Below are positions 1 through 11,507 of a DNA stretch of 11,507 nucleotides, piece after piece; position 1 is the stretch's first letter; each line of letters starts with the position of its first letter. Source of the DNA: Clostridiaceae bacterium (GTDB taxonomy: Bacteria; Bacillota; Clostridia; Saccharofermentanales; Fastidiosipilaceae); the NCBI GenBank assembly GCA_012514965.1, contig JAAYZH010000352.1, forward strand, positions 1 to 11,507, given 5' to 3'. A program made the position numbers and the translations under genes. The notes beneath the pieces were generated by a model. That model made no database searches. It was not told the DNA's origin and worked only from the letters and a program-made list of their open reading frames with translations.

Positions 1-1
1 C

Positions 2-172
2 GGCTCTATGGTTGTCGGTGATAAAGTCGTTACAATCGGCGGCATTGTAGGCCGCGTCGTGAACATCAAGGACAACGAGATTACGGTCTCCACTTCTGTT
101 GCGAACACGATGATGACTTTTCGCAAAGAAGCAATTGATCAGGTTATCAAACCAGTCTCAGACGATAAATAA
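2..172 (+). CDS. yajC: YajC, preprotein translocase accessory subunit (3' part only)
   Basis: The reading frame is open from base 2 and ends at TAA 170-172, giving 56 residues of the C-terminal part; the start lies outside the window. The visible protein begins GSMVVGDKVVTIGGIVGRVV and continues with an NIKDNEITV segment. This is the conserved post-membrane domain of YajC (typical pattern: GD.VVT.GGI.G.V..I.D). YajC is a small single-span inner-membrane protein that associates with SecDF and the SecYEG channel; the membrane helix would be in the missing N-terminal part. In many clostridia yajC sits near tgt, the SCIFF genes and secDF (recalled, not checked here), and the next gene is indeed the SCIFF precursor. 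No U-tract terminator follows, so weak read-through into scfA is possible, although scfA has a good promoter of its own. Confidence 0.88.
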   Translation, partial: GSMVVGDKVVTIGGIVGRVVNIKDNEITVSTSVANTMMTFRKEAIDQVIKPVSDDK

Positions 173-217
173 GTTAGTCGAACGCAGACTTTTTTCACAC
201 AAGTTTCTGCGAAAATA

Positions 218-246
218 TTGGCAAGCTGCGGTGCTTTCAGTATAAT
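218..246 (+). promoter_or_regulatory. Sigma-A type promoter for the SCIFF operon
   Basis: A -35 box TTGGCA (218-223, 5 of 6 consensus bases) is separated by exactly 17 bases from a perfect -10 box TATAAT (241-246). The predicted transcription start is near 252-254, giving a leader of about 40 bases before the scfA start codon at 293. It is one of the best promoters in the window, consistent with high expression of a precursor peptide. Confidence 0.8.
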
Positions 247-292
247 TTGTTTATTAGTCGGTCGAGTTTATCTGACCTAGAAGAGGTAGCCT

Positions 293-439
293 ATGAAGCA
301 TTTGAATTTAGTTTACGGACCGCGTAAGGTCTACAGCGTTTCCGGCAAGGCTTGCGGTGAGTGCCAGACATCTTGCCAGTCCGCCTGCAAGACCAGCTGT
401 ACGGTAGCAAACCAGAAGTGCGAGAAGCTCAAGAAGTAA
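293..439 (+). CDS. scfA: Six-cysteine ranthipeptide precursor SCIFF
   Basis: A 48-residue ORF with ATG start at 293, preceded by AAGAGG at 281-286 (spacing 6), and TAA stop at 437-439. Its six cysteines are at residues 21, 24, 28, 32, 36 and 43. The C-terminal half reads CGECQTSCQSACKTSC then TVANQKC, which is the hallmark of the SCIFF family ('six cysteines in forty-five residues'). These peptides are substrates of a radical SAM maturase that forms thioether crosslinks. For the Clostridium thermocellum homologue CteA I recall a crosslink between Cys32 and Thr37, and this peptide has Cys32 and Thr37 at the same positions. Residues 1-20 (MKHLNLVYGPRKVYSVSGKA) are the likely leader bound by the maturase; the start MKH is typical of the family. 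The cognate maturase follows immediately, beyond a terminator-like hairpin. The biological role of the mature peptide is unresolved. Confidence 0.93.
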   Translation: MKHLNLVYGPRKVYSVSGKACGECQTSCQSACKTSCTVANQKCEKLKK

Positions 440-469
440 ATATTGCTTTTGTTCACCTTTAACTTGTAG

Positions 470-504
470 AGCATGACTTCCCGTTTGTCGGGATCATGCT
501 TTTT
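470..504 (+). terminator. Intergenic terminator/attenuator between scfA and scfB
   Basis: The hairpin has outer arms AGCATGA (470-476) and TCATGCT (494-500) and inner arms CCCG (480-483) and CGGG (489-492) around a short loop, with a small asymmetric internal loop. The run TTTTT (500-504) follows directly, with further T-rich sequence to 514. I see no convincing promoter between the hairpin and the scfB start, so scfB probably depends on read-through. This would yield much more precursor than maturase mRNA. Confidence 0.75.
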
Positions 505-537
505 GTCTGTTTTTAGAGATTAGAATGGAGATATACT

Positions 538-1941
538 TTGCTGCATACGTTCACTGTCAACGGTGATTATTTAGCTTTTGATTCTGAGACACAGGCGCTG
601 GTCGCCATGGACTATTTGCCTTGGCGTTTGCTGGAGGCTTTCGATGCCTTCACCGGCGAGGGCCCTGACACTGCCGCCTTAACGCGCATACGGCTTGAAT
701 TCCCGGATCAGGCAGATGCAATTGCCGAAATTGCCGCGGAGATCGCTGCTTTACGGGATGATGAGGCTTTATTTGCTCCTCCGACAGAGGTCAATCTTGA
801 ACAGCTGTATCCTGAGAAGCCTTTGATCAAGTCCATGTGCCTCCACATCTGCCACGACTGCAATCTCCGCTGCCGTTACTGCTTTGCCGGACAAGGTGAT
901 TATCACTCCGGGATGAGAAGCTTGTTATCTGCCGAGGTAGGGAAGCAAGCAATCGACTTTCTGATCGATGCTTCAGGTAAACGGCATAATCTCGACATTG
1001 ATTTTTTTGGCGGCGAGCCGCTCTTGAACTGGGACGTCGTGGTCGAGTTAGTTGACTACTGCGAGCAGCGCTCTGCAGAAACCGGCAAGGATCTTAGATT
1101 GACGATCACAACGAATGCTCTTCTGCTTAATAAAGAGAAACGTGATTACATTAACATGCATTTTAAGAATTGCGTACTCAGCATCGATGGCCGTGAGCAA
1201 GTGCACAACTACATGAGACCGAGCCCATCGGGGGCGGATTCTTTTGCCCCAATTTTGAGGAACATCAAGGAATTTGTCGCTGAACGCGGCGACAAGGAAT
1301 TTTACGTTCGCGGTACGTATACGCATTACAATACAGACTTCGCTTCAGATGTAGCTTTTCTGGCCAGTGAAGATCTGCAGCAGATCTCCATGGAACCTGT
1401 AGTGGCAGATTCTCATGAGCCTTATGCCCTGACGGCTGAAGATATAGAGAAGATTAAGACTGAATACGAGAAACTTGCCTTCCACTACGTTGAAGAGAAG
1501 GATGGCGCGCACCCTTATCGCTTTTTCCACTTTAATCTGGATCTGGACGAGGGCCCCTGCGCATACAAGCGCCTCAAGGGCTGCGGCGTCGGTACGGAAT
1601 ATATAGCGGTCACACCTCAAGGGGACATCTATCCTTGCCATCAATTGGTGGGTAAAGATGAATTTCTTATGGGCAATGTTTCGCAGAAGCCTAATCAGCT
1701 TAACCCGGCTATCACCGCTCAGTTCGCGGATCATTTGGTGCCGGATCGTCAGCCTTGCCAGACCTGCTGGGCGCGTTATTACTGTGCCGGAGGCTGTGTA
1801 GCGAATCATTACCAGGCTACGGGCTCGCTCGATGGAATCTATGAACAAGGTTGTGAGCTTCAGAAGAAGCGTTTGGAGGCGGCCCTCTGGGTGAAGTACA
1901 AGGAGAAAGAAAAGGAGCTTGCCAGAGAACAATTTGCTTGA
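538..1941 (+). CDS. scfB: Radical SAM/SPASM thioether-forming maturase of SCIFF peptide
   Basis: This 467-residue protein of the CteB/ScfB family crosslinks Cys side chains of the ScfA precursor to neighbouring residues using S-adenosylmethionine and iron-sulfur clusters in the cytoplasm. Residues 1 to about 90 are the expected RiPP-recognition (PqqD-like) region. The radical SAM cluster motif is C108-NLR-C112-RY-C115, and GGEP at 158-161 is the usual SAM-binding segment. The C-terminal SPASM domain supplies cysteines for two auxiliary clusters: C341, C349, C367, C407, C410, C416, C420 and C439. The stretch before the first motif (YPEKPLIKSMCLHICHDC) is typical of SCIFF maturases. The start is TTG 538: a TAG at 514-516 closes the frame upstream, no in-frame ATG occurs nearby, and GGAG at 527-530 lies 7 bases before TTG. 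The weak start codon and the upstream hairpin both suggest low expression relative to scfA. No dedicated transporter or protease gene follows. Confidence 0.93.
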   Translation: MLHTFTVNGDYLAFDSETQALVAMDYLPWRLLEAFDAFTGEGPDTAALTRIRLEFPDQADAIAEIAAEIAALRDDEALFAPPTEVNLEQLYPEKPLIKSMCLHICHDCNLRCRYCFAGQGDYHSGMRSLLSAEVGKQAIDFLIDASGKRHNLDIDFFGGEPLLNWDVVVELVDYCEQRSAETGKDLRLTITTNALLLNKEKRDYINMHFKNCVLSIDGREQVHNYMRPSPSGADSFAPILRNIKEFVAERGDKEFYVRGTYTHYNTDFASDVAFLASEDLQQISMEPVVADSHEPYALTAEDIEKIKTEYEKLAFHYVEEKDGAHPYRFFHFNLDLDEGPCAYKRLKGCGVGTEYIAVTPQGDIYPCHQLVGKDEFLMGNVSQKPNQLNPAITAQFADHLVPDRQPCQTCWARYYCAGGCVANHYQATGSLDGIYEQGCELQKKRLEAALWVKYKEKEKELAREQFA

Positions 1942-1965
1942 GGCAAAACAAGAGGAAATTATAAA
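1938..1965 (+). promoter_or_regulatory. Possible promoter for the dnaG-rpoD cluster
   Basis: A -35-like TTGAGG (1938-1943) overlapping the scfB stop codon lies 16 bases before a -10-like TATAAA (1960-1965). The AT-rich stretch to 2026 then leads to the dnaG ribosome binding site AGGGAG (2027-2032). No terminator is visible after scfB, so read-through from the SCIFF operon is also possible. Confidence 0.4.
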
Positions 1966-2037
1966 CGAATTGTAAATTCTTCAAATAAATAAAGGGATTT
2001 ACCTTTGCTCAACGTAATTAAACATTAGGGAGTAAAG

Positions 2038-3954
2038 ATGGCAAAGAGAATTCCGGACAGTGTAATAGAAGAGATCAAAGCGAAGAGCGATATCGTCGAT
2101 ATCGTCTCTTCTTATGTCACTTTGACGCGTAAGTCCCAGCAGAATCTTTTTGGCCTTTGTCCTTTCCATCAGGAGAAATCACCATCGTTCAGTGTATCGC
2201 CACACAAGCAAATCTATTATTGCTTTGGCTGCAGCAAAGGCGGAGATGTCAACCATTTCATCATGGACATAGAACATTTCCGCTACCCTGAAGCGATCCG
2301 TTTTCTCGGTGAACGCTGCGGTGTAGAAGTGCCTGAGGCTGAAGATGGTGATGAGCGCTATCAGGAAGATAAACGTCGTCGAGAACGCTTGTATGAGCTC
2401 AATACAGAAGCAGCACGCTATTTTTACCAATCCTTATTGGAAGCCGCCGGGCAGGAAGCTCGCGCCTACATGAAACGACGCGGCATCAGCAGACAGACAG
2501 CCGTCAGCTTTGGCCTAGGTTTTGCTCCGGAACGTTGGCAGGGTCTGCTTGACCATATCCGCTCCAAGGGCTACAGCGAACAGGAAATAGGGGACTCAGG
2601 ACTTTTTAAGAAGAATCGTAAAGATGCCTGGTATGATTTATTTCGCAACCGTCTGATCTTTCCCATCATTGACGTGATGGGCAGGATCGTAGCGTTCGGC
2701 GGCCGTGTTATGGACGATAGTGTGCCTAAGTATCTCAATTCACCGGAGAACCTGATTTACACGAAGGGGCAACATCTTTATGGCTTGAATTTGGCCAAAA
2801 AAACGCGTAAGGACCGGCTGCTGATCGTGGAGGGCTACATGGATTGTATTTCCCTGCATCAGGCGGGTTTCGACCAGAGTGTCGCTTCGCTGGGTACAGC
2901 CCTTACGCAACAGCAGGCTGCGTTGCTCCGCAAGTACAACGAAGAGATTGTTCTGGGCTATGATATGGATAATGCCGGCCGCCAGGCGACTTTGCGTAAC
3001 ATCGATACACTTGAAGAAAAGGGTGCCAAGCCTTTTGTCTTGATTTTGCCGGACGCGAAGGACCCCGATGACTACATTCGCAAGCACACCCCGGATGATT
3101 TTAATGCGTTGCTTCGGGAGGCGCCGACAGGCCTTGATTATAAGTTTATTCATGCGAAACAAAGTGCCCAGCACAATGACCGTCTTGATAAAGTCAAGTA
3201 CCAGGAATTAGCGACGGATCTGCTCCTGGACATCCGCAACCCTGTCGTACAGGAGTTATACATACCCAAGGTGGCCGCCGAGCTTGGAGTCCCGGTTGAG
3301 AGTGTACACATGCTTTTGACACAGCGGGAGCAAGAAAAAGCACGGAACACCAGACCTAAGAATCCTTATCGGCCGAACACGAGCACGAGCTCGCAGACAA
3401 CAGAACAGCCAGCTGCTGTACAAGACAGTGCGGCAAAGGCACCTGAAATACGAGGGCCTCTGCTCAGCAAAGTTGAAGCCGCTTTCCTAATACGACTCAC
3501 GCGGCGTCCGGATGTTTATCTTGAACATCAATTGCGTTGCGAGGCAAAATGGTTCAAAAAATCAGTCAGGCCCTTTGTCGAAGCCATTTTGGCAAAAGCC
3601 GCAGGCGGTGAACTAAACGAACGCAGCTTGATGAGCTTAGTCAACGAGACGGATGATCTGATCAGGGATGAAATTTCCTCGCAGCTTGGCGCTTTGCTGA
3701 TGCGAGAGGAAAACGCCGAAACGCAGGATCAGATTGCAACCATCATGCGCCGGCAGCTCCTGTTGATCAGCATTCATTACTATTCCACAATGAGCAAGCT
3801 GATATCTGATCGCCTGGACAGCGGAGCGAGTGAGGAACAAGGCGATTTACGTAAGCAGTTCATCCGTGTACGGCAAGCTATGCAGGATACCCAAAAAGAA
3901 TTACAGGAAATGGATAGAGCCTACAGCTTTGTCCACGAGGAGCAGGATTTCTAG
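2038..3954 (+). CDS. dnaG: DNA primase
   Basis: This 638-residue bacterial primase synthesises RNA primers at the replication fork and works with the DnaB-type helicase. Domains in order: a CHC2 zinc finger at residues about 38-66 with ligands C41, H44, C62 and C65 (CPFH and CFGC); the RNA polymerase core with the RNRLIFPI and GGR segments near 204-223; and the TOPRIM fold with EGYMD at 265-269, GYDMDNAG at 307-314 (metal-binding D309, D311) and KDPDD at 341-345. A low-complexity linker (about 433-470, rich in Asn, Thr, Ser, Gln and Pro) leads to the helicase-binding C-terminal domain. Length is normal for the family. The ATG at 2038 has AGGGAG 5 bases upstream. rpoD follows after 69 bases, the conserved dnaG-rpoD order; rpsU, which precedes dnaG in E. 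coli, is absent here, as is common in Firmicutes. Confidence 0.97.
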   Translation: MAKRIPDSVIEEIKAKSDIVDIVSSYVTLTRKSQQNLFGLCPFHQEKSPSFSVSPHKQIYYCFGCSKGGDVNHFIMDIEHFRYPEAIRFLGERCGVEVPEAEDGDERYQEDKRRRERLYELNTEAARYFYQSLLEAAGQEARAYMKRRGISRQTAVSFGLGFAPERWQGLLDHIRSKGYSEQEIGDSGLFKKNRKDAWYDLFRNRLIFPIIDVMGRIVAFGGRVMDDSVPKYLNSPENLIYTKGQHLYGLNLAKKTRKDRLLIVEGYMDCISLHQAGFDQSVASLGTALTQQQAALLRKYNEEIVLGYDMDNAGRQATLRNIDTLEEKGAKPFVLILPDAKDPDDYIRKHTPDDFNALLREAPTGLDYKFIHAKQSAQHNDRLDKVKYQELATDLLLDIRNPVVQELYIPKVAAELGVPVESVHMLLTQREQEKARNTRPKNPYRPNTSTSSQTTEQPAAVQDSAAKAPEIRGPLLSKVEAAFLIRLTRRPDVYLEHQLRCEAKWFKKSVRPFVEAILAKAAGGELNERSLMSLVNETDDLIRDEISSQLGALLMREENAETQDQIATIMRRQLLLISIHYYSTMSKLISDRLDSGASEEQGDLRKQFIRVRQAMQDTQKELQEMDRAYSFVHEEQDF

Positions 3955-4023
3955 ACAGACCAGTCACCGTCTCGGCGGTGTGATTCATAGACGAAATATC
4001 AAAAGGACAGATAAAGGAGAATT

Positions 4024-5079
4024 ATGGCTACAGGAATATTGTCACGTTTGCTTAAAGAGGCTAAGAATAACAACAATCAGCTATCCTACCGCGAGGTAAT
4101 GGATCTGCTGGAGAAAAATGACGTCGATTTGGAACAAACTGAATCGCTGCTCGACCAGCTTGAAGCTGCCGGCGTGAAAATCGTCGCGGATAATGTCGTC
4201 GATGATGACGCAGACGGCGCAGACGATTCGAGCCTTAAAGTCGACCAGATCACGGTCGACGACCCTGTACGCATGTACCTTAAGGAAATCGGCAAAGTTG
4301 ATCTTTTGACTGCTGATGAAGAGAGAGACCTGGCCCAACGCATGGAGGCCGGAGATGATGACGCGCGCGATCATCTGGCTGAAGCCAATCTTCGTCTGGT
4401 GGTTTCGATTGCCAAACGCTATACAGGCCGCGGCTTGTCCTTTCTCGATCTTATTCAGGAAGGTAACCTGGGCCTTTTAAAAGCAGTCGAAAAATTCGAT
4501 TATAAAAAAGGCTTTAAATTCTCCACCTACGCGACCTGGTGGATACGCCAGGCGATTACCCGCGCAATTGCTGACCAGGCCAGAACGATCCGCATACCGG
4601 TTCACATGGTCGAAACAATCAATAAGTTGATCCGCGTGCAGCGCCAGCTGATTCAAGAACTTGGCCGTGAACCCGAAGTCGAGGAACTGGCGGCCGAATT
4701 GGACATCACACCCGAGAAAGTTCGCGAAATCATGAAGATTTCCCAAGAACCGGTCTCCCTTGAGAAGCCGATCGGCGAGGAAGAGGACAGCCACCTGGGC
4801 GACTTTATTCCCGATGAAGATATTCCTTCACCTGAGCAACAGGCAGCCTTTACTCTGCTCAAGGAGCAGCTCAACGAGATCTTGGCCAGCCTGACGCAAA
4901 GAGAAGAAAAGGTTCTTCGTTTGCGTTTCGGCCTGGACGACGGCCGTCCACGTACACTAGAAGAAGTAGGCAAGGAATTTGGCGTAACGCGTGAAAGAAT
5001 TCGTCAGATCGAAGCAAAAGCCCTGCGCAAACTACGTCGTCCCAGCCGCAGCAAGAAGTTGAAAGATTACTTGGATTAA
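4024..5079 (+). CDS. rpoD: RNA polymerase primary sigma factor RpoD (SigA)
   Basis: A 351-residue housekeeping sigma-70 factor that directs RNA polymerase to -35/-10 promoters such as those seen in this window. The N-terminus (1-75) is a compact region 1.1 ending in an acidic tract (DDDADGADD). Region 1.2 contains [11 protein letters not shown] (80-90). Region 2 spans about 120-195, with the core-binding and -10 recognition segment [20 protein letters not shown] at 166-185. Region 3 covers about 195-270. Region 4 holds the helix-turn-helix [20 protein letters not shown] at 311-330, and the protein ends LKDYLD. The large insert between regions 1.2 and 2 found in proteobacterial RpoD is absent, as expected for Gram-positive SigA. 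The start is supported by AAAGGAGA at 4013-4020. The stop codon overlaps the start of trmK by one base, so the two are probably translationally coupled. Confidence 0.97.
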
Positions 5080-5843
5080 TGGCAGCGTTATCCGCTAGAC
5101 TGCAAACCATTCTGGAGCTGATTCCACAGGCTACGCTTCGCTTGGTAGATGTAGGCTGCGACCACGGGCTTTTGTCACGAGCTTTTCTGGAGGCACACCC
5201 CGAGAGTCGCGCGCTGCTGATTGACCGCCGCCCTGGGCCTCTGGCGAAGGCTGAAGCCCTCTTGTCAGAGCAGGCGTCGTCAGGGAGGGCGGAGTTTCGT
5301 CTAGCGGATGGCCTTGCAGCGTGGTGCCCGACAGCAGGGGACACGGTTGTAATCGCCGGTATGGGTGGGCGCGAAATTCTCGGAATTCTCGGGCGATTGG
5401 CTGAGGAAGAACGTTTCGTGGGCCAAAAAGATTTCCCCATCAGGATTCTCGTACAGGCAATGCGCGACATGCCATTTGTCCGCGAGGCCTTGCGGAGAAA
5501 CGGTGCGCGGTCTGGTGGCCAAAAACTTTGCCGGGACAGGGGCTGGATTTACAGCGTCGATCTCTATGAAGTTTTATTTTCGACTTTGAAGGCCGTTACG
5601 CCGGCCTCTGTTGTCCGCGAGGAAGAGGATTGGCTGGGGACTTGGTTGTGGAAGAGCATTCGCAGCGAAATAAGCAGCCCGGATTCGGGCAGCAGGTTCA
5701 GTCCTCAAGAAACCCTAGCCTATTTGCGCCGGCAACAGCGCATTGCTGAAGGGGAAATCAAAGGCTTATCGAGCGCTGAGGTTGCTCAGCGCGAAGCCTT
5801 GTTAACCGTATTTGCCCAATCGATCGAGGTGTTGGAAGGATAG
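5079..5843 (+). CDS. trmK: tRNA (adenine(22)-N1)-methyltransferase TrmK
   Basis: A 254-residue SAM-dependent methyltransferase of the TrmK (YqfN/COG2384) family, which makes m1A at position 22 of tRNAs. Motif I is VDVGCDHG (23-30), followed by the acidic strand end ALLIDRRP (45-52), the ADGLAAW segment (76-82) and the family signature VVIAGMGG (90-97). QAMRD at 126-130 and the VREALRRNG segment match the usual back half of the Rossmann fold. The C-terminal region (about 205-254) is helical and charged, as expected for the family's coiled-coil extension. The ATG at 5079 overlaps the TAA of rpoD (sequence TAATG), and no separate promoter is evident. The order rpoD-trmK-nif3 is familiar from Firmicutes (in Bacillus subtilis sigA, yqfN, yqfO lie close together). 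Function is assigned by motif and context. Confidence 0.9.
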   Translation: MAALSARLQTILELIPQATLRLVDVGCDHGLLSRAFLEAHPESRALLIDRRPGPLAKAEALLSEQASSGRAEFRLADGLAAWCPTAGDTVVIAGMGGREILGILGRLAEEERFVGQKDFPIRILVQAMRDMPFVREALRRNGARSGGQKLCRDRGWIYSVDLYEVLFSTLKAVTPASVVREEEDWLGTWLWKSIRSEISSPDSGSRFSPQETLAYLRRQQRIAEGEIKGLSSAEVAQREALLTVFAQSIEVLEG

Positions 5844-5851
5844 AAATACGA

Positions 5852-6703
5852 ATGAAACTACATAGTCTTATCGATTTTTTTGAGAGCATCGCGCCGCTTT
5901 CCTGGCAGGAGCCTTGGGACAAAAGCGGCCTCCAGATCGGAGATCCTGAACAAGACTTAAAGCGTGTTCTTTTTGCTCTGGACTTAGATGGGCTTGCCCT
6001 GCAGCGTGCGATCGAAGCGAAAGTGGACGCAGTGGTCACGCACCACCCGTTGTTTTTTAAGCCTCTGGAAGGTGTGCGCAGCTTTGTGCCGGAAGAGCAA
6101 CTCGTCCGCTCTCTCTTGTTTCACAATATCAGTGTTTACTCTATGCACACGAATCTGGATGCTGCGCCATGGGGCGTAAACGATCAGCTGGCGCGCCGGC
6201 TTGGTTTAGCTGGCCGTTTGGCCGCAGAGCCACTCATACCGGTGAATATTCCGGCTGACTCGCTGCCGATCGGCAATCCATTTAAGAAGTTTGAGGACTA
6301 TGTCGGTCGTCCGCCAGGTTTGGGGCTGGTGGCTAGAGTAGATTTAAGCCGTTTCGATCTTTTGCGAATCTGCCGTGAGGGCTTGGCACCGGCTGCTCAA
6401 GTGAATTTTGGCGATAACGCGCCCCTGAAACTCGTAGTCCTGGCCGGCGGATCCTGGGATGGGGCCTGGCTCGAAGCGGCTGTGCATCGCGAAGTGGATG
6501 CGATTATCACCGGTGAAATGAAATATCATGACCAGATTGCCTGTCGCGAGCGAGGGATCGCCGTCTTCTGCCTGGGGCATGATGTAAGCGAACGGGTGAT
6601 TCTGCCGTTTTTGCAGGAGAGTTTGCGGTCATTTGCTCAGAAGAACGGCGGAGAAAGCCTTGAACTGTTCGTCCATGAGGGTATAGCCCACATAGAACTG
6701 TAA
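5852..6703 (+). CDS. Nif3-like dinuclear metal-centre protein (YqfO/YbgI family)
   Basis: A 283-residue NIF3/DUF34 family protein. Candidate metal ligands are all present: H64 and H65 in VVTHHPLFF (61-69), H99 and D103 in MHTNLDAAPWGVND (98-111), and H243 and E247 in LGHDVSERVI (241-250). ITGEMKYHD at 219-227 is another family signature. Homologues form hexameric toroids with a two-metal site in each subunit; a GTP cyclohydrolase I-like or hydrolase role has been suggested, but the physiological function is not settled. At 283 residues it is closer to E. coli YbgI (about 247) than to B. subtilis YqfO (about 370), so it lacks the inserted PII-like domain. It begins 8 bases after the trmK stop with GGAAGGA at 5834-5840 as the likely ribosome binding site, and it is probably the last gene of the dnaG-rpoD-trmK transcript. 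Confidence 0.9.
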   Translation: MKLHSLIDFFESIAPLSWQEPWDKSGLQIGDPEQDLKRVLFALDLDGLALQRAIEAKVDAVVTHHPLFFKPLEGVRSFVPEEQLVRSLLFHNISVYSMHTNLDAAPWGVNDQLARRLGLAGRLAAEPLIPVNIPADSLPIGNPFKKFEDYVGRPPGLGLVARVDLSRFDLLRICREGLAPAAQVNFGDNAPLKLVVLAGGSWDGAWLEAAVHREVDAIITGEMKYHDQIACRERGIAVFCLGHDVSERVILPFLQESLRSFAQKNGGESLELFVHEGIAHIEL

Positions 6704-6731
6704 ACGTCACGGGTACAGTTTTGGCCTATAC

Positions 6732-6760
6732 GTGACGAAGCGTCCCTGACAGGGTATAAT
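6732..6760 (+). promoter_or_regulatory. Promoter of RNase P RNA gene
   Basis: A perfect TATAAT (6755-6760) lies 17 bases after GTGACG (6732-6737, 4 of 6 to the -35 consensus). The predicted start falls at about 6767-6771, at the 5' strand of helix P1 of the RNA. The -35 hexamer is inside the right arm of a 7-base inverted repeat (CGTCACG 6705-6711, CGTGACG 6731-6737). Confidence 0.72.
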
Positions 6761-6770
6761 AACGGAGATT

Positions 6771-7118
6771 TCTGAGATAGCCGGACAATCGCGGACACAA
6801 GTCGAAAGGCTGTGTATGAGGAAAGTCCGGGCTCTTTAGAACCAAGGGCGCCGGGTAGTTCCCGGTGAAGGCGACTTTAAGGATAGTGCAACAGAGATAT
6901 ACCGCCGGCCGCGAGGCCGGTAAGGGTGGAAAGGCAGGGTAAGAGCCTACCGGCGGCATGGTAACATGCCGGCCATGTAAACCCCGTCCGGAGCAACACC
7001 GTGGAGGAACATATGCTGAGGTTCAGGCGTTCCGAGGAGGTGGCTTGAGCCCTGATGAGAGTCAGGGCCTAGATAAATGATTGTCCAAGACAGAACCCGG
7101 CTTATAGGCTATCTCAGA
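6771..7118 (+). ncRNA. rnpB: RNase P RNA, type A (ancestral bacterial class)
   Basis: This is the catalytic RNA of ribonuclease P, which removes 5' leaders from pre-tRNAs together with RnpA protein. The conserved core is clear: GAGGAAAGTCCGG at 6818-6830, AGTGCAACAGAGA near 6886-6898, GGGTAAGAGCC near 6937-6947, GGAGCAACACCG near 6990-7001, and ACAGAACCCGGCTTA at 7090-7104. Terminal helix P1 is a perfect 12-bp pairing of 6771-6782 with 7107-7118. The layout resembles the E. coli RNA rather than the B. subtilis type B RNA: a P10-P12 region followed by a TGGCTTGAGCC...GGGCCTAGAT segment. A GGT at 7039-7041 in the P15 region can pair with the tRNA CCA end. The mature ends are estimated from P1. 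A 3' U-rich stretch follows P1 (TTTCTATT), but no strong separate terminator is seen, so transcripts may run on into the next gene. Confidence 0.96.
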
Positions 7119-7191
7119 TTTCTATTATGGATAATTTACTGCGGCGTTTGGTCCGCACAGCTCTAAGCAAGGGCGTCGGCAGGAGGATAAG

Positions 7192-8361
7192 ATGAGCGAG
7201 AGTCAGTATCAGCAACGCGGTGTTTCGGCCTCGAAGAAGGAAGTCCACGCGGCGATTCAGGATCAGGACAAAGGTCTCTATCCCGGTGCGTTTTGCACGA
7301 TTTTGCCGGACCTGAGCGGTGATGAAGACTGGTGCATGCTTATGCATGCTGACGGCGCGGGGACGAAGTCATCGCTGGCCTATTTATACTACAAAGAGAC
7401 CGGCGACTTATCTGTCTTTGCCGGCATCGCCCAGGATTCTCTGGTAATGAATACGGATGATCTGGCCTGCGTAGGCGCGGTAGATCATTTTTTCGTTTCA
7501 AATACGATAGGCCGCAATGCGCATCGCGTCGGCGGTGAGGTGATCAAGACGATTATCGAAGGCTACCAGAGTTTTGTCAGCAAATTAAGTGAACTTGGTG
7601 TAGACGTGACACTGGCCGGCGGTGAAACAGCCGATGTCGGTGATCTCGTCAATACCCTGATCTGTGACTCTACAGCCACTGTCCGTCTCCGTAGAACAGA
7701 GGTCGTAAACGCGGCAGAAATCACGCCCGGTCTGGCGATCGTAGGCCTCGAGTCGACAGGCAGAGCGACGTATGAAGACTTCGATAACGCAGGGATGGGG
7801 TCGAATGGTTTGACGGCGGCCCGGCACTTGCTGCTTCATTCCGACTACAGGACGAAGTATCCTGAGACTTACGCGAATTCCATGGACCCGCAGCTGGCCT
7901 ATACTGGCAAATATCATGTAGAGGATATTTTGCCCGATACCGATATGACGGTCGGCAAGGCCATTCTCTCGCCTACGCGTACCTATCTGCCTCTGATCAA
8001 GCAACTGCTTGAGCAGCAGAGGCCCGCGATTAAGGGCATGATTCATTGCACCGGCGGCGGTCAGGCCAAATGTACGCATTTCGGCAGCGGTATTCGCTAT
8101 GTAAAAAACAATTTATTCCCTATACCGCCATTATTCAGGGCGATTTTCGAACAAGGCGACATTGATGCCAAGGAAATGTACCAGGACTTTAACATGGGTC
8201 ATCGCCTGGAAATATTCTGTACTGTTGAGTCAGTACCGGCAATCATTGCCTGCGCAGCTGAATTTGGCATTGCGGCCAGACAAGTAGGCTACACCGAGGC
8301 AGCGGAAGGCGCGAATGAATTGTGGCTCGAAAGCGAATTAGGGAAATTCCTTTACAAGTGA
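7192..8361 (+). CDS. purM: AIR synthase-like protein (PurM superfamily, divergent subtype)
   Basis: A 389-residue protein of the PurM-like ATP-binding superfamily, probably phosphoribosylformylglycinamidine cyclo-ligase, which makes aminoimidazole ribotide in purine synthesis. Visible motifs are DGAGTK (54-59), NTDDLACVGA (87-96, where classical PurM has a VNDL..GAEP-like segment), GGETADVGD (143-151; classical GGETAEMPG), GMGSNGL (201-207), HCTGGG (285-290) and FNMGHR (333-338; classical FNMG followed by small residues). It opens YQQRGVSASKKEVH. The combination and length (classical PurM is about 340-350) match from memory the 'AIR synthase related' form seen in Bacteroidetes. The start at 7192 has AGGAGG at 7181-7186, 5 bases upstream. 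No other purine gene is adjacent: it lies alone between rnpB and rpsO. The symbol is therefore a best estimate, and another ATP-dependent ligase of the superfamily cannot be excluded. Confidence 0.75.
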   Translation: MSESQYQQRGVSASKKEVHAAIQDQDKGLYPGAFCTILPDLSGDEDWCMLMHADGAGTKSSLAYLYYKETGDLSVFAGIAQDSLVMNTDDLACVGAVDHFFVSNTIGRNAHRVGGEVIKTIIEGYQSFVSKLSELGVDVTLAGGETADVGDLVNTLICDSTATVRLRRTEVVNAAEITPGLAIVGLESTGRATYEDFDNAGMGSNGLTAARHLLLHSDYRTKYPETYANSMDPQLAYTGKYHVEDILPDTDMTVGKAILSPTRTYLPLIKQLLEQQRPAIKGMIHCTGGGQAKCTHFGSGIRYVKNNLFPIPPLFRAIFEQGDIDAKEMYQDFNMGHRLEIFCTVESVPAIIACAAEFGIAARQVGYTEAAEGANELWLESELGKFLYK

Positions 8362-8379
8362 GATGTTTCTCGCTATAAT
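8351..8379 (+). promoter_or_regulatory. Promoter of rpsO inside the 3' end of purM
   Basis: TTTACA (8351-8356, 5 of 6) lies 17 bases before a perfect TATAAT (8374-8379). The -35 box is within the last codons of the preceding gene. The predicted start near 8385 gives a leader of about 74 bases before rpsO. Confidence 0.78.
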
Positions 8380-8382
8380 TTA

Positions 8383-8437
8383 TCTGTTATACCCTGAACT
8401 GGGTTAGGCGGGATGTCCTTCCCCTTACTCAGACAGA
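8383..8437 (+). promoter_or_regulatory. Possible S15 autoregulatory leader (three-way junction)
   Basis: Three short helices can form around a junction: TCTGT (8383-8387) with ACAGA (8433-8437); ACCC (8391-8394) with GGGT (8401-8404); and GGGA (8410-8413) with TCCC (8420-8423). Each inner arm closes a 6-base loop. Ribosomal protein S15 binds a three-way junction in 16S rRNA, and several bacteria control rpsO through a leader that mimics it. The outer helix is only 5 bp and starts about where transcription should begin, so this is a suggestion. The ribosome binding site AGGAGG (8449-8454) lies just downstream. Confidence 0.35.
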
Positions 8438-8458
8438 GGCCGACAACTAGGAGGAACT

Positions 8459-8722
8459 ATGGACAGTGTAAATAAGCAAGCAATTATCAAAGAATTCGCC
8501 ACACATGAGGGCGACACCGGTTCTCCGGAAGTACAGGTAGCACTCCTGACCGCGAGAATTTCCCACCTGACCGAACATCTGAAGGTACATGCCCACGACC
8601 ATCACTCGCGTCGCGGCCTTCTGCAGATGGTAGGTGACAGAAGAGGCCTGCTGGATTATCTGATGAAGATCGATATTGAGCGTTACAGAACTCTCATCGA
8701 GCGTCTCGGCCTGCGTAAGTAA
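8459..8722 (+). CDS. rpsO: Ribosomal protein S15
   Basis: An 87-residue protein of normal S15 length (88-89 in most bacteria). It binds the central domain of 16S rRNA early in 30S assembly. Signatures are [15 protein letters not shown] near residues 16-30, [12 protein letters not shown] at about 44-55, and RRGLLDYL at about 61-68; the protein ends ERLGLRK. The ATG at 8459 follows AGGAGG at 8449-8454. The gene has its own promoter and a strong terminator, and pnp follows. rpsO-pnp is a widely conserved pair, also seen in E. coli. Confidence 0.97.
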
Positions 8723-8735
8723 TTTAGGAACTAAG

Positions 8736-8764
8736 ACTGGCAGGGTTTTCCCTGCCAGTTTTAT
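8736..8764 (+). terminator. Rho-independent terminator after rpsO
   Basis: A perfect 10-bp stem, ACTGGCAGGG (8736-8745) with CCCTGCCAGT (8750-8759), has a TTTT loop and is followed by a short T-rich run (8759-8764). It separates rpsO from pnp, which therefore needs read-through or a promoter of its own. A poor -10-like TATAAA at 8764-8769 without a good -35 is the only local candidate. Confidence 0.88.
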
Positions 8765-8775
8765 ATAAATCAAAA

Positions 8776-8856
8776 TTCCGTGGCCGTAGTAGGTAGAACG
8801 AAATTGTCTTCTGTCAGACTGCAAGACAGCTTGGTTCTACAGCCTACAGCACGGAA
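8776..8856 (+). promoter_or_regulatory. Long imperfect stem-loop in the pnp leader
   Basis: An 81-base structure is built from stacked arms: TTCCGTG (8776-8782) with CACGGAA (8850-8856), GTAG (8786-8789) with CTAC (8844-8847), GTAGAAC (8793-8799) with GTTCTAC (8834-8840), and TGTCTT (8805-8810) with AAGACA (8823-8828). That is 24 bp in all around a 12-base loop. It ends 18 bases before the pnp start. In E. coli a long pnp leader duplex is cut by RNase III and then attacked by PNPase itself to limit pnp expression; the same logic is inferred here. Confidence 0.72.
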
Positions 8857-8874
8857 AAGTCAGGAAGGGTATTT

Positions 8875-11172
8875 ATGAAGAAAGTATTTACAACAGAAAT
8901 AGCCGGCAGAACCTTACAGGTCGAGATCGGCCAGCTGGCTCAACTTGCCAACGGTGCCTGTCTCGTGCGTTATGGCGACACAACCGTATTGAGCACAGCT
9001 ACCGCTTCGAAGTCGCCCAGACAAGGTATCGACTTTTTCCCATTGAGTGTTGACTATGAAGAGAAGATGTACGCTGTGGGCAAATTCCCCGGCGGCTTTC
9101 TCAAGCGAGAAGGCAGACCCACTGAACAGGCAATCCTGACCTCACGTGCCATCGATCGCCCTATGCGTCCTCTGTTCCCCAAGGATCTGCGTAATGACGT
9201 TAACCTGAACAATCTGGTTCTCTCTGTAGATCCTAATTGCTCCCCGGCATTTTGCGCGATGTTTGGCTCTTCTTTGGCCACAGTAATTTCTGATATTCCC
9301 TGGAATGGTCCGACCGCTAGCGTGAACCTCGGTCTGGTCGACGGCGAACTGGTCATCAACCCCACGCAAGACGAAGCAGCTGTCAGTGATATGGATATCA
9401 CCATGGCCGGTACTGCAGACAAGATCTGCATGATCGAAGCCGGTGCCAACGAAGTGCCTGATGAAGATATGCTCGAATATCTCTCGCGTGGCTTTGAAGT
9501 CATTCAGAAACTTTGCCAGTTCATCAACGAGATCGCTGCTGAAGTCGGCAAACCGAAGTTTGCTTACGAATCCTCCGCTGTACCCGATGATGTTCAGACA
9601 ATCGTTCGTGACTTTGCCGGTGACAAGGTGCGCGCGGGGATTTTCGAAGCGGACAAAGAAACCCGCGACAAGAACATGGACGCGGTCAAAGCCGAGCTCG
9701 TGGCCTACTTGAGCGAAAATTACCCGGATTATGTATCTTATGCCGGTGATTCATTCGATAAGCTCGAGAAAGAAATCGTGCGCCTGGCACTGTTCCATGA
9801 TCATAAGCGTGTCGACGGCCGCGCGATCAACCAGATCCGCGATCTGTCCGGTGAAGTAGGCGTAGTGCCCAGAATGCATGGTTCCAGCTTGTTCCAGCGC
9901 GGTTCTACACAGGTCTTGAACATCGTGACGCTCGCGCCCATGTCTAAGGTCCAGAAGCTCGACGGTCTCGATGATGTCGAGTATAAGCGCTACATGCATC
10001 ATTACAACTTCCCTGGCTACAGTGTCGGCGAAGCGAAGCCCAACCGTTCGCCAGGCCGTCGCGAAATCGGCCACGGTGCCTTGGCTGAGCGCTCGCTCCT
10101 CGCAGTACTGCCCAGCGAAGAAGAGTTCCCATACGCCATCCGTTCGGTCTCCGAAGTGCTGATGTCCAATGGTTCCACTTCGCAAGGATCCGTTTGCAGC
10201 TCTTGTATGGCTCTTATGGATGCCGGTGTGCCGATCACTCGTCCTGTAGCGGGTATCTCTTCCGGCTTGATCGTGAATCCGGAGGACGAAAGCGATTACC
10301 TGGTCTTTATGGATATTCAGGGTATCGAAGACTTCTACGGTGATATGGACTTCAAGGTAGCGGGTACTACTGAAGGTATTACTGGTATTCAGGTCGATAT
10401 CAAGGTCAACGGCCTTTCTATGGACATCATCCGTGAAGCCTTCGCGATGACGAAAGCTGGAAGACTGCAGATCATTAATGAAGTGATGATTCCTACGATT
10501 GCCGAGCCCAGAGCAGAGTTGAGCCCATTTGCACCGAAGATTTTGCAGACCGTGATTCCTGTTGAGAGAATCGGCGAAGTCATCGGCAAGAGCGGCAAGG
10601 TTATCAACCAGATTATCGCTGACACCGGTGCGCAGATTGACATCGAAGACGATGGCCGTGTATTTATTTCCGCGCAGGACATCGATGCAGCCAGACGTGC
10701 TCTTGCCATCGTTGTAGGCATCGTGACCGATCCCGAGCCGGGCCAGGTCTATGAAGGCCGCGTTACCCGCCTGATGAATTTCGGCGCATTCGTTGAGTAT
10801 TTGCCCGGTAAAGAAGGCCTGGTACATATTTCGAAGATGGCCTGGGGCAGAGTCGAGAAAGTCGAAGACGCAGTTGCTGTCGGCGACATTGTTACGGTCA
10901 AAGTGCTTGAGCTCGATGACCAGGGCCGCATCAATCTCTCGATTCGTGACACGATCGAAAAGCCGGAAGGCTATGTCGAGCCGCAGCGTCAAGAACGTCC
11001 GCGTGACAATGGTCACGGACGCGATCAGAACGGACGCGGTGATCGTGGCGGTTATGATCGTGACCGCCGTCCGCAGCGTGACAACCGTGATAATCGTGAC
11101 AATCGCGATCGCGGACCCAGTCGCGAAGGTGACAGCGCAAGACCCCGCACACCCAGAAACAGACAGGACTAA
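8875..11172 (+). CDS. pnp: Polyribonucleotide nucleotidyltransferase (PNPase)
   Basis: A 765-residue trimeric 3'-to-5' phosphorolytic exoribonuclease of RNA decay. Two RNase PH-like domains (about 1-225 and 305-540) flank a helical domain; KH follows at about 555-615 with the GKSG loop (571-574), and S1 at about 623-692 (GQVYEGRVTRLMNFGAFVEY). Catalytic residues D486, D492 and K494 in DFYGDMDFK carry the same numbers as I recall for E. coli PNPase, and GFLKREGRPTE (74-84) is the usual RNA-binding segment of the first domain. The tail from about 695 is hydrophilic and rich in Arg, Asp, Asn and Gly, with three RDN triplets at 735-743, and looks disordered; the enzyme core ends before it. The ATG at 8875 follows AGGAAGG (8862-8868). 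The gene sits behind rpsO, with a structured leader between them and a strong terminator after it. Confidence 0.97.
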   Translation: MKKVFTTEIAGRTLQVEIGQLAQLANGACLVRYGDTTVLSTATASKSPRQGIDFFPLSVDYEEKMYAVGKFPGGFLKREGRPTEQAILTSRAIDRPMRPLFPKDLRNDVNLNNLVLSVDPNCSPAFCAMFGSSLATVISDIPWNGPTASVNLGLVDGELVINPTQDEAAVSDMDITMAGTADKICMIEAGANEVPDEDMLEYLSRGFEVIQKLCQFINEIAAEVGKPKFAYESSAVPDDVQTIVRDFAGDKVRAGIFEADKETRDKNMDAVKAELVAYLSENYPDYVSYAGDSFDKLEKEIVRLALFHDHKRVDGRAINQIRDLSGEVGVVPRMHGSSLFQRGSTQVLNIVTLAPMSKVQKLDGLDDVEYKRYMHHYNFPGYSVGEAKPNRSPGRREIGHGALAERSLLAVLPSEEEFPYAIRSVSEVLMSNGSTSQGSVCSSCMALMDAGVPITRPVAGISSGLIVNPEDESDYLVFMDIQGIEDFYGDMDFKVAGTTEGITGIQVDIKVNGLSMDIIREAFAMTKAGRLQIINEVMIPTIAEPRAELSPFAPKILQTVIPVERIGEVIGKSGKVINQIIADTGAQIDIEDDGRVFISAQDIDAARRALAIVVGIVTDPEPGQVYEGRVTRLMNFGAFVEYLPGKEGLVHISKMAWGRVEKVEDAVAVGDIVTVKVLELDDQGRINLSIRDTIEKPEGYVEPQRQERPRDNGHGRDQNGRGDRGGYDRDRRPQRDNRDNRDNRDRGPSREGDSARPRTPRNRQD
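11077..11109 (+). repeat. Short tandem repeat coding for RDN triplets in the PNPase tail
   Basis: Three nearly identical 9-base units of the form CGTGAYAAY, plus a partial fourth, encode RDNRDNRDNRD (residues 735-745). Third-position differences (AAC/AAT, GAC/GAT) show the array is not a very recent exact duplication. Such Arg/Asp/Asn/Gly tails are common on PNPases of this group of bacteria and may bind RNA or protein partners. Confidence 0.75.
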
Positions 11173-11186
11173 GTCACTCGCTTAGC

Positions 11187-11215
11187 CTGACAGTATGCTA
11201 GCCAATTGATAAAAT
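11187..11215 (+). promoter_or_regulatory. Promoter of the WYL gene overlapping the pnp terminator
   Basis: CTGACA (11187-11192, 5 of 6) lies exactly 17 bases before TAAAAT (11210-11215, 5 of 6). The -10 box overlaps the left arm of the pnp terminator hairpin, and transcription would start near 11221-11223 in the loop. Only 16 bases separate the terminator T-tract from the next start codon, so no promoter can fit after the hairpin. Confidence 0.6.
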
Positions 11216-11239
11216 GCCGCCTTTTCGGCGGCATTTTTT
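11211..11239 (+). terminator. Rho-independent terminator after pnp
   Basis: The GC-rich stem pairs GCCGCC (11216-11221) with GGCGGC (11227-11232) around a TTTTC loop. It is extended by AAAAT on the left with ATTTT on the right and followed by T to 11239. The A-rich left side could also let it terminate transcription from the opposite direction. Confidence 0.92.
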
Positions 11240-11255
11240 CTAGGAGGACAACGTA

Positions 11256-11507
11256 ATGGCCAGAACGTCTGAGCAAAAACTAAAGATACTCTATGTCAAA
11301 GAATTTCTTGAGAATTTTTCTGATGAGCAGAACCCTGTGTCCACTAAGGAAATCATCGCTTATCTTGAAGAAAAAGGCATCAAGGCCGAACGCAAAAGTA
11401 TTTATGACGACATCGCTGCTCTTATACATTATGGTCTGGACATTATCAAAGTCGGCGGTCAGGGAGGCGGCTACTATCTGGGGCAGCGTCCGTTGGAGCT
11501 GGCTGAG
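11256..11507 (+). CDS. WYL-domain family transcriptional regulator (N-terminal part)
   Basis: The first 84 codons of a gene that continues past the window edge. The ATG at 11256 has TAGGAGG at 11241-11247, 8 bases upstream. The visible protein, beginning MARTSEQKLKILYVKEFLEN, is a winged helix-turn-helix of the DeoR/HTH_11 kind. It has a helix pair including VSTKEIIAYLEEKGI (about 28-42), a recognition-helix region RKSIYDDIAALIHYGLDI (about 46-63), and a wing with GGQGGGYYLGQR (about 67-78). This N-terminus is typical of the Firmicutes YafY-type regulators that carry a ligand-binding WYL domain, but that domain is not in the window, so the family call rests on the DNA-binding half only. Target genes cannot be told from what is visible. 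Confidence 0.75.
   Translation, partial: MARTSEQKLKILYVKEFLENFSDEQNPVSTKEIIAYLEEKGIKAERKSIYDDIAALIHYGLDIIKVGGQGGGYYLGQRPLELAE

Follow-up and report, generated by a model that had tools for sequence, protein, structure and literature searches.

The window, the whole stretch of 11,507 nt that was analyzed (positions 1 to 11,507, forward strand, of contig JAAYZH010000352.1 from the Clostridiaceae bacterium assembly GCA_012514965.1), contains a real, intact and ordinary SCIFF ranthipeptide locus. The system is already well known: a two-gene system of anaerobic clostridia composed of a small cysteine-rich peptide and a radical enzyme thought to cross-link it. Judging from sequence comparison across the order and the phylum, the locus is very probably a conserved chromosomal SCIFF system in which the peptide ScfA is made in excess, the maturase ScfB is supplied by read-through, a thioether probably joins Thr34 to Cys32, and the product plays a cell-autonomous or signalling role that, in the window's order, is independent of Spo0A.

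The features of the locus are collected in Table 1. The initial annotation had read the two open reading frames as precursor and maturase of a complete ranthipeptide cassette beside yajC and had suggested matching both products to their families; both genes are present as described and exceed the cut-offs of the curated SCIFF models TIGR03973, PF13165 and TIGR03974, and the neighboring yajC fragment exceeds that of PF02699. ScfA consists of a variable leader (residues 1-20) and a near-invariant core (residues 21-43), with six cysteines within about 45 residues (positions 21, 24, 28, 32, 36 and 43) and threonines at 34 and 37. The only TIGR03973 match of the genome and its best TIGR03974 match both lie inside the window, and another contig carries a further radical SAM gene, which scored just 67.6 bits against the TIGR03974 cut-off of 425. 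The remaining scanned reading frames of the window encode a TrmK-like methyltransferase, a Nif3-like protein, a PurM-like protein, rpsO, pnp and a cut regulator-like gene; secDF is absent from the window. Three further features were observed downstream. A bacterial class A RNase P RNA occupies 6773-7120 (RF00010, 270.6 bits), and the PurM-like AIR synthase at 7192-8361 is a diverged form (TIGR00878, 109.3 bits versus a cut-off of 236.35). The protein start at 11256-11507, cut by the contig end, matches PF16902 (FokI_D3, 36.1 bits, cut-off 29.2), a match which we take to reflect the helix-turn-helix part of a regulator.

Table 1. Features of the SCIFF locus and its flanking genes in the window
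Feature	Position	Strand	Evidence
yajC, 3' part (Sec accessory subunit)	2..172	+	gene cut by contig start; PF02699 44.9 bits, cut-off 28.2; TIGR00739 40.3 bits, cut-off 44.2 (fragment)
sigma-70-like promoter of scfA, TTGGCA-17-TATAAT	218..246	+	11/12 consensus bases
Shine-Dalgarno-like AGAAGAGG	279..286	+	6 nt before scfA ATG (293); read from sequence
scfA, 48-residue SCIFF ranthipeptide precursor, ATG start	293..439	+	TIGR03973 67.3 bits, cut-off 50; PF13165 68.1 bits, cut-off 27
intrinsic terminator between scfA and scfB, 12-pair core stem and T tract	468..506	+	-18.6 kcal/mol, z = -3.96
Shine-Dalgarno-like GGAG	527..530	+	7 nt before scfB TTG; read from sequence
scfB, radical SAM/SPASM SCIFF maturase, 467 aa, TTG start	538..1941	+	TIGR03974 540 bits, cut-off 425
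dnaG, downstream neighbor	2038..3954	+	TIGR01391 440.6 bits, cut-off 283.6
rpoD (sigA), next neighbor after dnaG	4024..5079	+	NF006666 586.4 bits, cut-off 572

Residues 1-456 of the 467-residue ScfB align with the solved chain 5wgg (435.9 bits), and 5why is also related; both are labelled 'Radical SAM domain protein' in the PDB table, and we take them to be CteB. ScfB carries the radical SAM motif C108-x3-C112-x2-C115, auxiliary-cluster cysteines in its C-terminal part and a SPASM domain (TIGR04085, 65.8 bits, cut-off 27). In an alignment of the 187 ScfB sequences long enough to be included, the 12 radical SAM and cluster cysteines were invariant in 184 rows, except for a single gap in each of the final two. 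ScfB of the window gave 431.4 bits on NF040492 (not_ScfB), a model of look-alikes, under the cut-off of 855. Assignment as a sactipeptide maturase was rejected, with the curated families far below their cut-offs (RumMC, 105.7 versus 720; StsB, 73.5 versus 625).

Few modified peptides of clostridia are as widespread as SCIFF. The precursor was found in 80 of the 98 genomes of the order set, which ranges from the window's own genome up to its order, and in 244 of 299 genomes of a phylum-wide draw restricted, apart from the window's own, to assemblies at least 90% complete. ScfB exceeded its cut-off in 76 of the 80 SCIFF genomes of the order and in none of the 18 SCIFF-less ones. Three of the four exceptions (G035, G047 and G065) hold ScfB fragments only, one a split gene and two at contig ends, and the fourth (G074, 65% complete) has SCIFF but no ScfB. 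Each positive genome of the order set has a single SCIFF copy, as do those of the phylum draw except G341 and G359, with two each.

For the comparison of precursors, 223 loci were reduced to 216 distinct ones by dropping seven duplicates. These include named loci (the best 80 of 592, leaning towards the query), the best-scoring 30 loci each of the order set and the phylum draw, and 60 further phylum loci hand-picked among the matches listed, so that weaker matches outside that list are excluded. Within this set, for which a core had to match the consensus at 11 or more of 23 residues and to carry four or more cysteines at the six positions, Cys21, Cys24, Cys28, Cys43, Gln29, Ser30, Ala31, Lys33, Thr34, Ser35, Asn40 and Gln41 were invariant. 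Cys32 is replaced by Ser in three loci and Cys36 by Ile in two, and position 37 is Thr in 174 loci, Gly in 39 and Ser in three. The Cys36 replacements by Ile (L105 and L222), together with one by Ser in protein P0004, leave five core cysteines. Genome G359 has two SCIFF genes (L223 and L234), of which L234, outside the 216-locus set, is a divergent copy beside ScfB with an altered core end (Ile at 41).

Mean pairwise amino acid identity was 0.89 for the core and 0.35 for the 17 residues preceding it, the latter value being lowered by the comparison without gaps. Core codons differed at rates of 0.094, 0.098 and 0.548 at positions 1, 2 and 3 (5000 sampled pairs of the 216 loci), and leader codons at 0.51, 0.43 and 0.70. 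Both Cys codons are used at all six cysteines, and all four Thr codons at Thr34 (ACT 91, ACA 58, ACC 54 and ACG 13). The constraint thus acts on the protein: the third-position excess and the mixed Cys codons dispose of the concern raised in the initial annotation, that the cysteines might be conserved only at the DNA level. The core of many bacteriocins varies behind a conserved leader, a pattern that is reversed in SCIFF.

Which threonine carries the thioether is disputed in print. According to reviews (PMC8326336, PMC8172795), in vitro work on Tte1186a and CteA assigned a Cys32-Thr37 link, whereas co-expression in E. coli assigned a link to the C-gamma of Thr34; one of the two reviews calls the nature of this discrepancy unclear. 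The initial annotation had predicted the Cys32-Thr37 ring. Its two residues are indeed at the numbered positions in the window, and Thr37 is shared by 174 of the 216 loci; 42 loci nevertheless lack Thr37, while Thr34 occurs in all 216. Since Thr34 is universal and Thr37 dispensable, a Cys32-Thr34 link is favored by the comparison, and we regard Thr37 as a rather unlikely acceptor. The force of this argument is bounded by phylogeny. In a tree of ScfB (92 of the 187 rows, a quick method with SH-aLRT support only), the rows without Thr37 form one group that needs one change (SH-aLRT 100), ruling out many independent losses, so that the loss of Thr37 amounts to a single natural experiment. Enzymes of different lineages may use different acceptors.

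A Cys32-Thr34 link cannot be the sole product everywhere either, because three loci (L098, L106 and L203) lack Cys32 yet keep Thr34. All three have Ser in place of the ring donor Cys32 and Ser in place of Thr37 and lie beside ScfB, which is full length with its motif in L098 and L203, the two readable cases, and is cut by the contig end in L106. Another donor, or no ring, must be assumed for these loci.

Cys21, Cys24, Cys28 and Cys43, which lie outside the mapped ring, are invariant in all 216 loci, and Cys32 and Cys36 can be lost (in three and two loci, respectively), a contrast that suggested another reading, in which the mature peptide is an intracellular metal-binding or redox factor rather than a secreted signal. 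The thioether would then be a staple shaping a four-cysteine ligand site. A review, however, reports that Cys21 contacts an auxiliary cluster in the CteB structure, and this contact alone may explain the invariance of Cys21; we consider a metal or redox factor quite improbable.

The initial annotation had described a self-contained cassette with its own promoter. The sigma-70-like promoter stands, but the locus is not one simple operon, since a terminator overlooked in the first reading splits the two genes, which lie 98 nt apart. A scan of window positions 1-2100 returned two promoter-like sites (2.3 in shuffles) and two terminator-like sites (1.7 in shuffles), counts that are uninformative by themselves because they are near expectation; the position, strength and recurrence of the sites carry the weight. 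Promoters with 11 or 12 matches occur within 200 nt of scfA in 47 of the 216 loci versus 1.6 in mononucleotide shuffles. In the window's family a score of 11 is reached by three of the ten T37-type loci, the window, L038 and L042, the latter two with the hexamers and spacing of the window, and the other seven score 6 to 10. None of 200 shuffles was as stable as the window's terminator. Of the 174 scfA-scfB gaps that are 40-400 nt long, 136 contain a T-tract hairpin of -8 kcal/mol or lower (26.0 on average in dinucleotide shuffles) and 77 contain one of -15 kcal/mol or lower (2.3 in shuffles). The terminator is not universal, being present in six of the nine family gaps examined. In L033 and L040 the arrangement is operon-like, with about 20 nt between the end of the yajC match and scfA, and 2 nt between scfA and the start of the ScfB match. 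The combination of an own promoter with an intrinsic terminator suggests that scfA would be transcribed from its sigma-70 promoter to the terminator, yielding the peptide in excess, and that scfB would be expressed by partial read-through past the terminator.

The proposed conservation beside yajC and secDF held in part. In all ten T37-type loci of the family, among them the window, scfA directly follows yajC, and dnaG lies downstream; the downstream context in this lineage is thus dnaG-rpoD, and SecDF was rejected as its conserved neighbor. Detected neighbors, counted by tblastn at 1e-6 and hence lower bounds, place yajC at 8/39 loci of the order set, 29/68 named loci and 8/86 of the phylum sample, and downstream SecD/F at 25/64 named and 4/50 phylum-sample loci.

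The eleventh SCIFF family member, G004, is of the Gly37 type, and its precursor gene lies two genes away from a gene for a PLP-enzyme-like protein, whose cluster has a member that matched lysine decarboxylase and transaminase models weakly, in every case below cut-off. Among loci with visible upstream DNA, 25 of 37 of the Gly37 type versus 1 of 156 of the Thr37 type have a PLP-enzyme-like gene no more than 1.4 kb upstream, and yajC was detected within 1.5 kb in none of the 37 Gly37 loci (e.g. L004, L012 and L047) versus 50 of the 156 Thr37 loci. The Gly37-type locus L047 is flanked by four mutually similar genes, one matching ABC-exporter models below cut-off; these are possible exporters.

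Precursor and enzyme can lie far apart. Of 146 loci with 1.7 kb or more of visible downstream DNA, 15 lacked an ScfB adjacent to scfA (8/53 in the phylum sample, 0/20 in family and order), and L133, which has no more of ScfB than a 41-residue piece, was counted as a sixteenth unlinked locus. Orphan SCIFF peptides devoid of any maturase were rejected as a general claim, as an ScfB over cut-off occurs elsewhere in 13 of these 16 genomes, and the remaining three are metagenome-assembled drafts. One of the 13 is G359, whose divergent second SCIFF lies near its ScfB; in the other 12, inspection of 4.0-4.4 kb around ScfB found no further SCIFF beside it. In the single-contig genome G347, scfA (about 2.42 Mb) and scfB (about 2.11 Mb, contig C1) are about 309 kb apart. 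In L081, L097 and L204, scfA is kept downstream of yajC without scfB, with SecD/F following in L097 and L204; in L039 ScfB is present.

As to function, the initial annotation had argued against a bacteriocin from the lack of an exporter, protease or immunity gene. This observation was borne out, since none of the 11 scanned reading frames of the window encodes an exporter, a leader peptidase or an immunity protein, the contig beginning 292 nt before scfA, and the conclusion gained from the comparison. A survey (PMC13289728) counts ranthipeptides, recognized by TIGR03973, among putative bacteriocin clusters, and exporter and immunity genes could be encoded elsewhere in the genome; the same survey describes the class as being without well-characterized antimicrobial activity. 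With a core that is near-invariant phylum-wide, unlike arms-race peptides, a peptide present in 244 of the 299 sampled genomes and no export or immunity gene among the scanned ones, an antimicrobial role appears extremely unlikely.

Another alternative is a secreted quorum-sensing or sporulation signal. Chen et al. 2020, as represented in papers citing it, linked SCIFF to quorum sensing and reported a C. beijerinckii mutant in which sporulation genes were downregulated and agr was upregulated; likewise, reviews and a genome paper describe changes in sporulation and in agr expression after disruption of the genes and name quorum sensing as the function of SCIFF. SCIFF, Spo0A and Agr, however, did not behave as a linked module in the window's order. 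Although SCIFF is present in 80 of the 98 genomes, Spo0A (TIGR02875) exceeded its cut-off in none, the best match scoring 80.1 bits against 200 and the listed matches all falling on the receiver side, in the first two thirds of the model. In the control for this search, one of 14 genomes, presumably Bacillus subtilis, exceeded the cut-off. AgrB exceeded its cut-off in 13 of the 98 genomes, all SCIFF-positive, hence in none of the other 67 SCIFF genomes. Absences in the window's own genome, 82% complete, weigh little, and the order-wide counts carry the argument. From these counts, the effects on sporulation and Agr that have been reported are unlikely to represent the conserved role in the order: Spo0A-dependent regulation of sporulation would not be that role, nor, in most genomes, would cross-talk with Agr. 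As the scanned genes of the window also include no exporter or leader peptidase, a secreted signal of the kind reported for C. beijerinckii, with Agr and sporulation genes as its targets, seems improbable here. A quorum-sensing role through other regulators may still apply.

The preferred reading, a conserved SCIFF system with a Spo0A-independent role, would proceed as follows. ScfB would bind the leader through its N-terminal part, which is aligned to the leader-binding end of CteB. By analogy with CteA/CteB, the radical SAM cluster would then generate a radical in the side chain of a threonine (Thr34 being the likeliest), with which Cys32, positioned at the open auxiliary cluster, would form the thioether with a loss of 2 Da. 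The product would most likely serve a cell-autonomous or signalling role kept across clostridia, in the window's order independently of Spo0A and, in most genomes, of AgrB. The comparison supplies constraints for such a role: Thr34 is the only threonine present in every locus compared, the four cysteines that lie outside the mapped ring tolerate replacement least, and SCIFF is retained in an order where Spo0A was not detected and AgrB is missing from most genomes.

Among the closest known systems is CteA/CteB of Clostridium (Acetivibrio) thermocellum (thermocellin; 5wgg/5why), with a maturase alignment of nearly full length. CteA, likened by description, has the same numbered Cys32, Thr34 and Thr37, and CteB an N-terminal leader-binding domain, according to reviews (PMC8326336, PMC8172795); unlike CteA/CteB, the window's lineage is marked by the dnaG-rpoD neighborhood. 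Tte1186a/Tte1186 of Caldanaerobacter subterraneus, also likened by description, is likewise a SCIFF precursor with its maturase, the pair for which the reviews relate the Cys32-Thr37 link in vitro. PapB of Paenibacillus polymyxa is a ranthipeptide maturase too, but ScfB of the window reaches 249 bits on NF047865, below the cut-off of 340, and its substrate PapA (freyrasin) has six Cys-Asp thioethers in the accounts of the same reviews (PMC8326336, PMC8172795), whereas the window core has no Asp. QhpD, the maturase of quinohemoprotein amine dehydrogenase, is a related radical SAM/SPASM enzyme that forms thioethers; ScfB reaches 203.5 bits on its model TIGR03906, far below the cut-off of 453, and the substrate of QhpD, unlike that of ScfB in the window, is an enzyme subunit.
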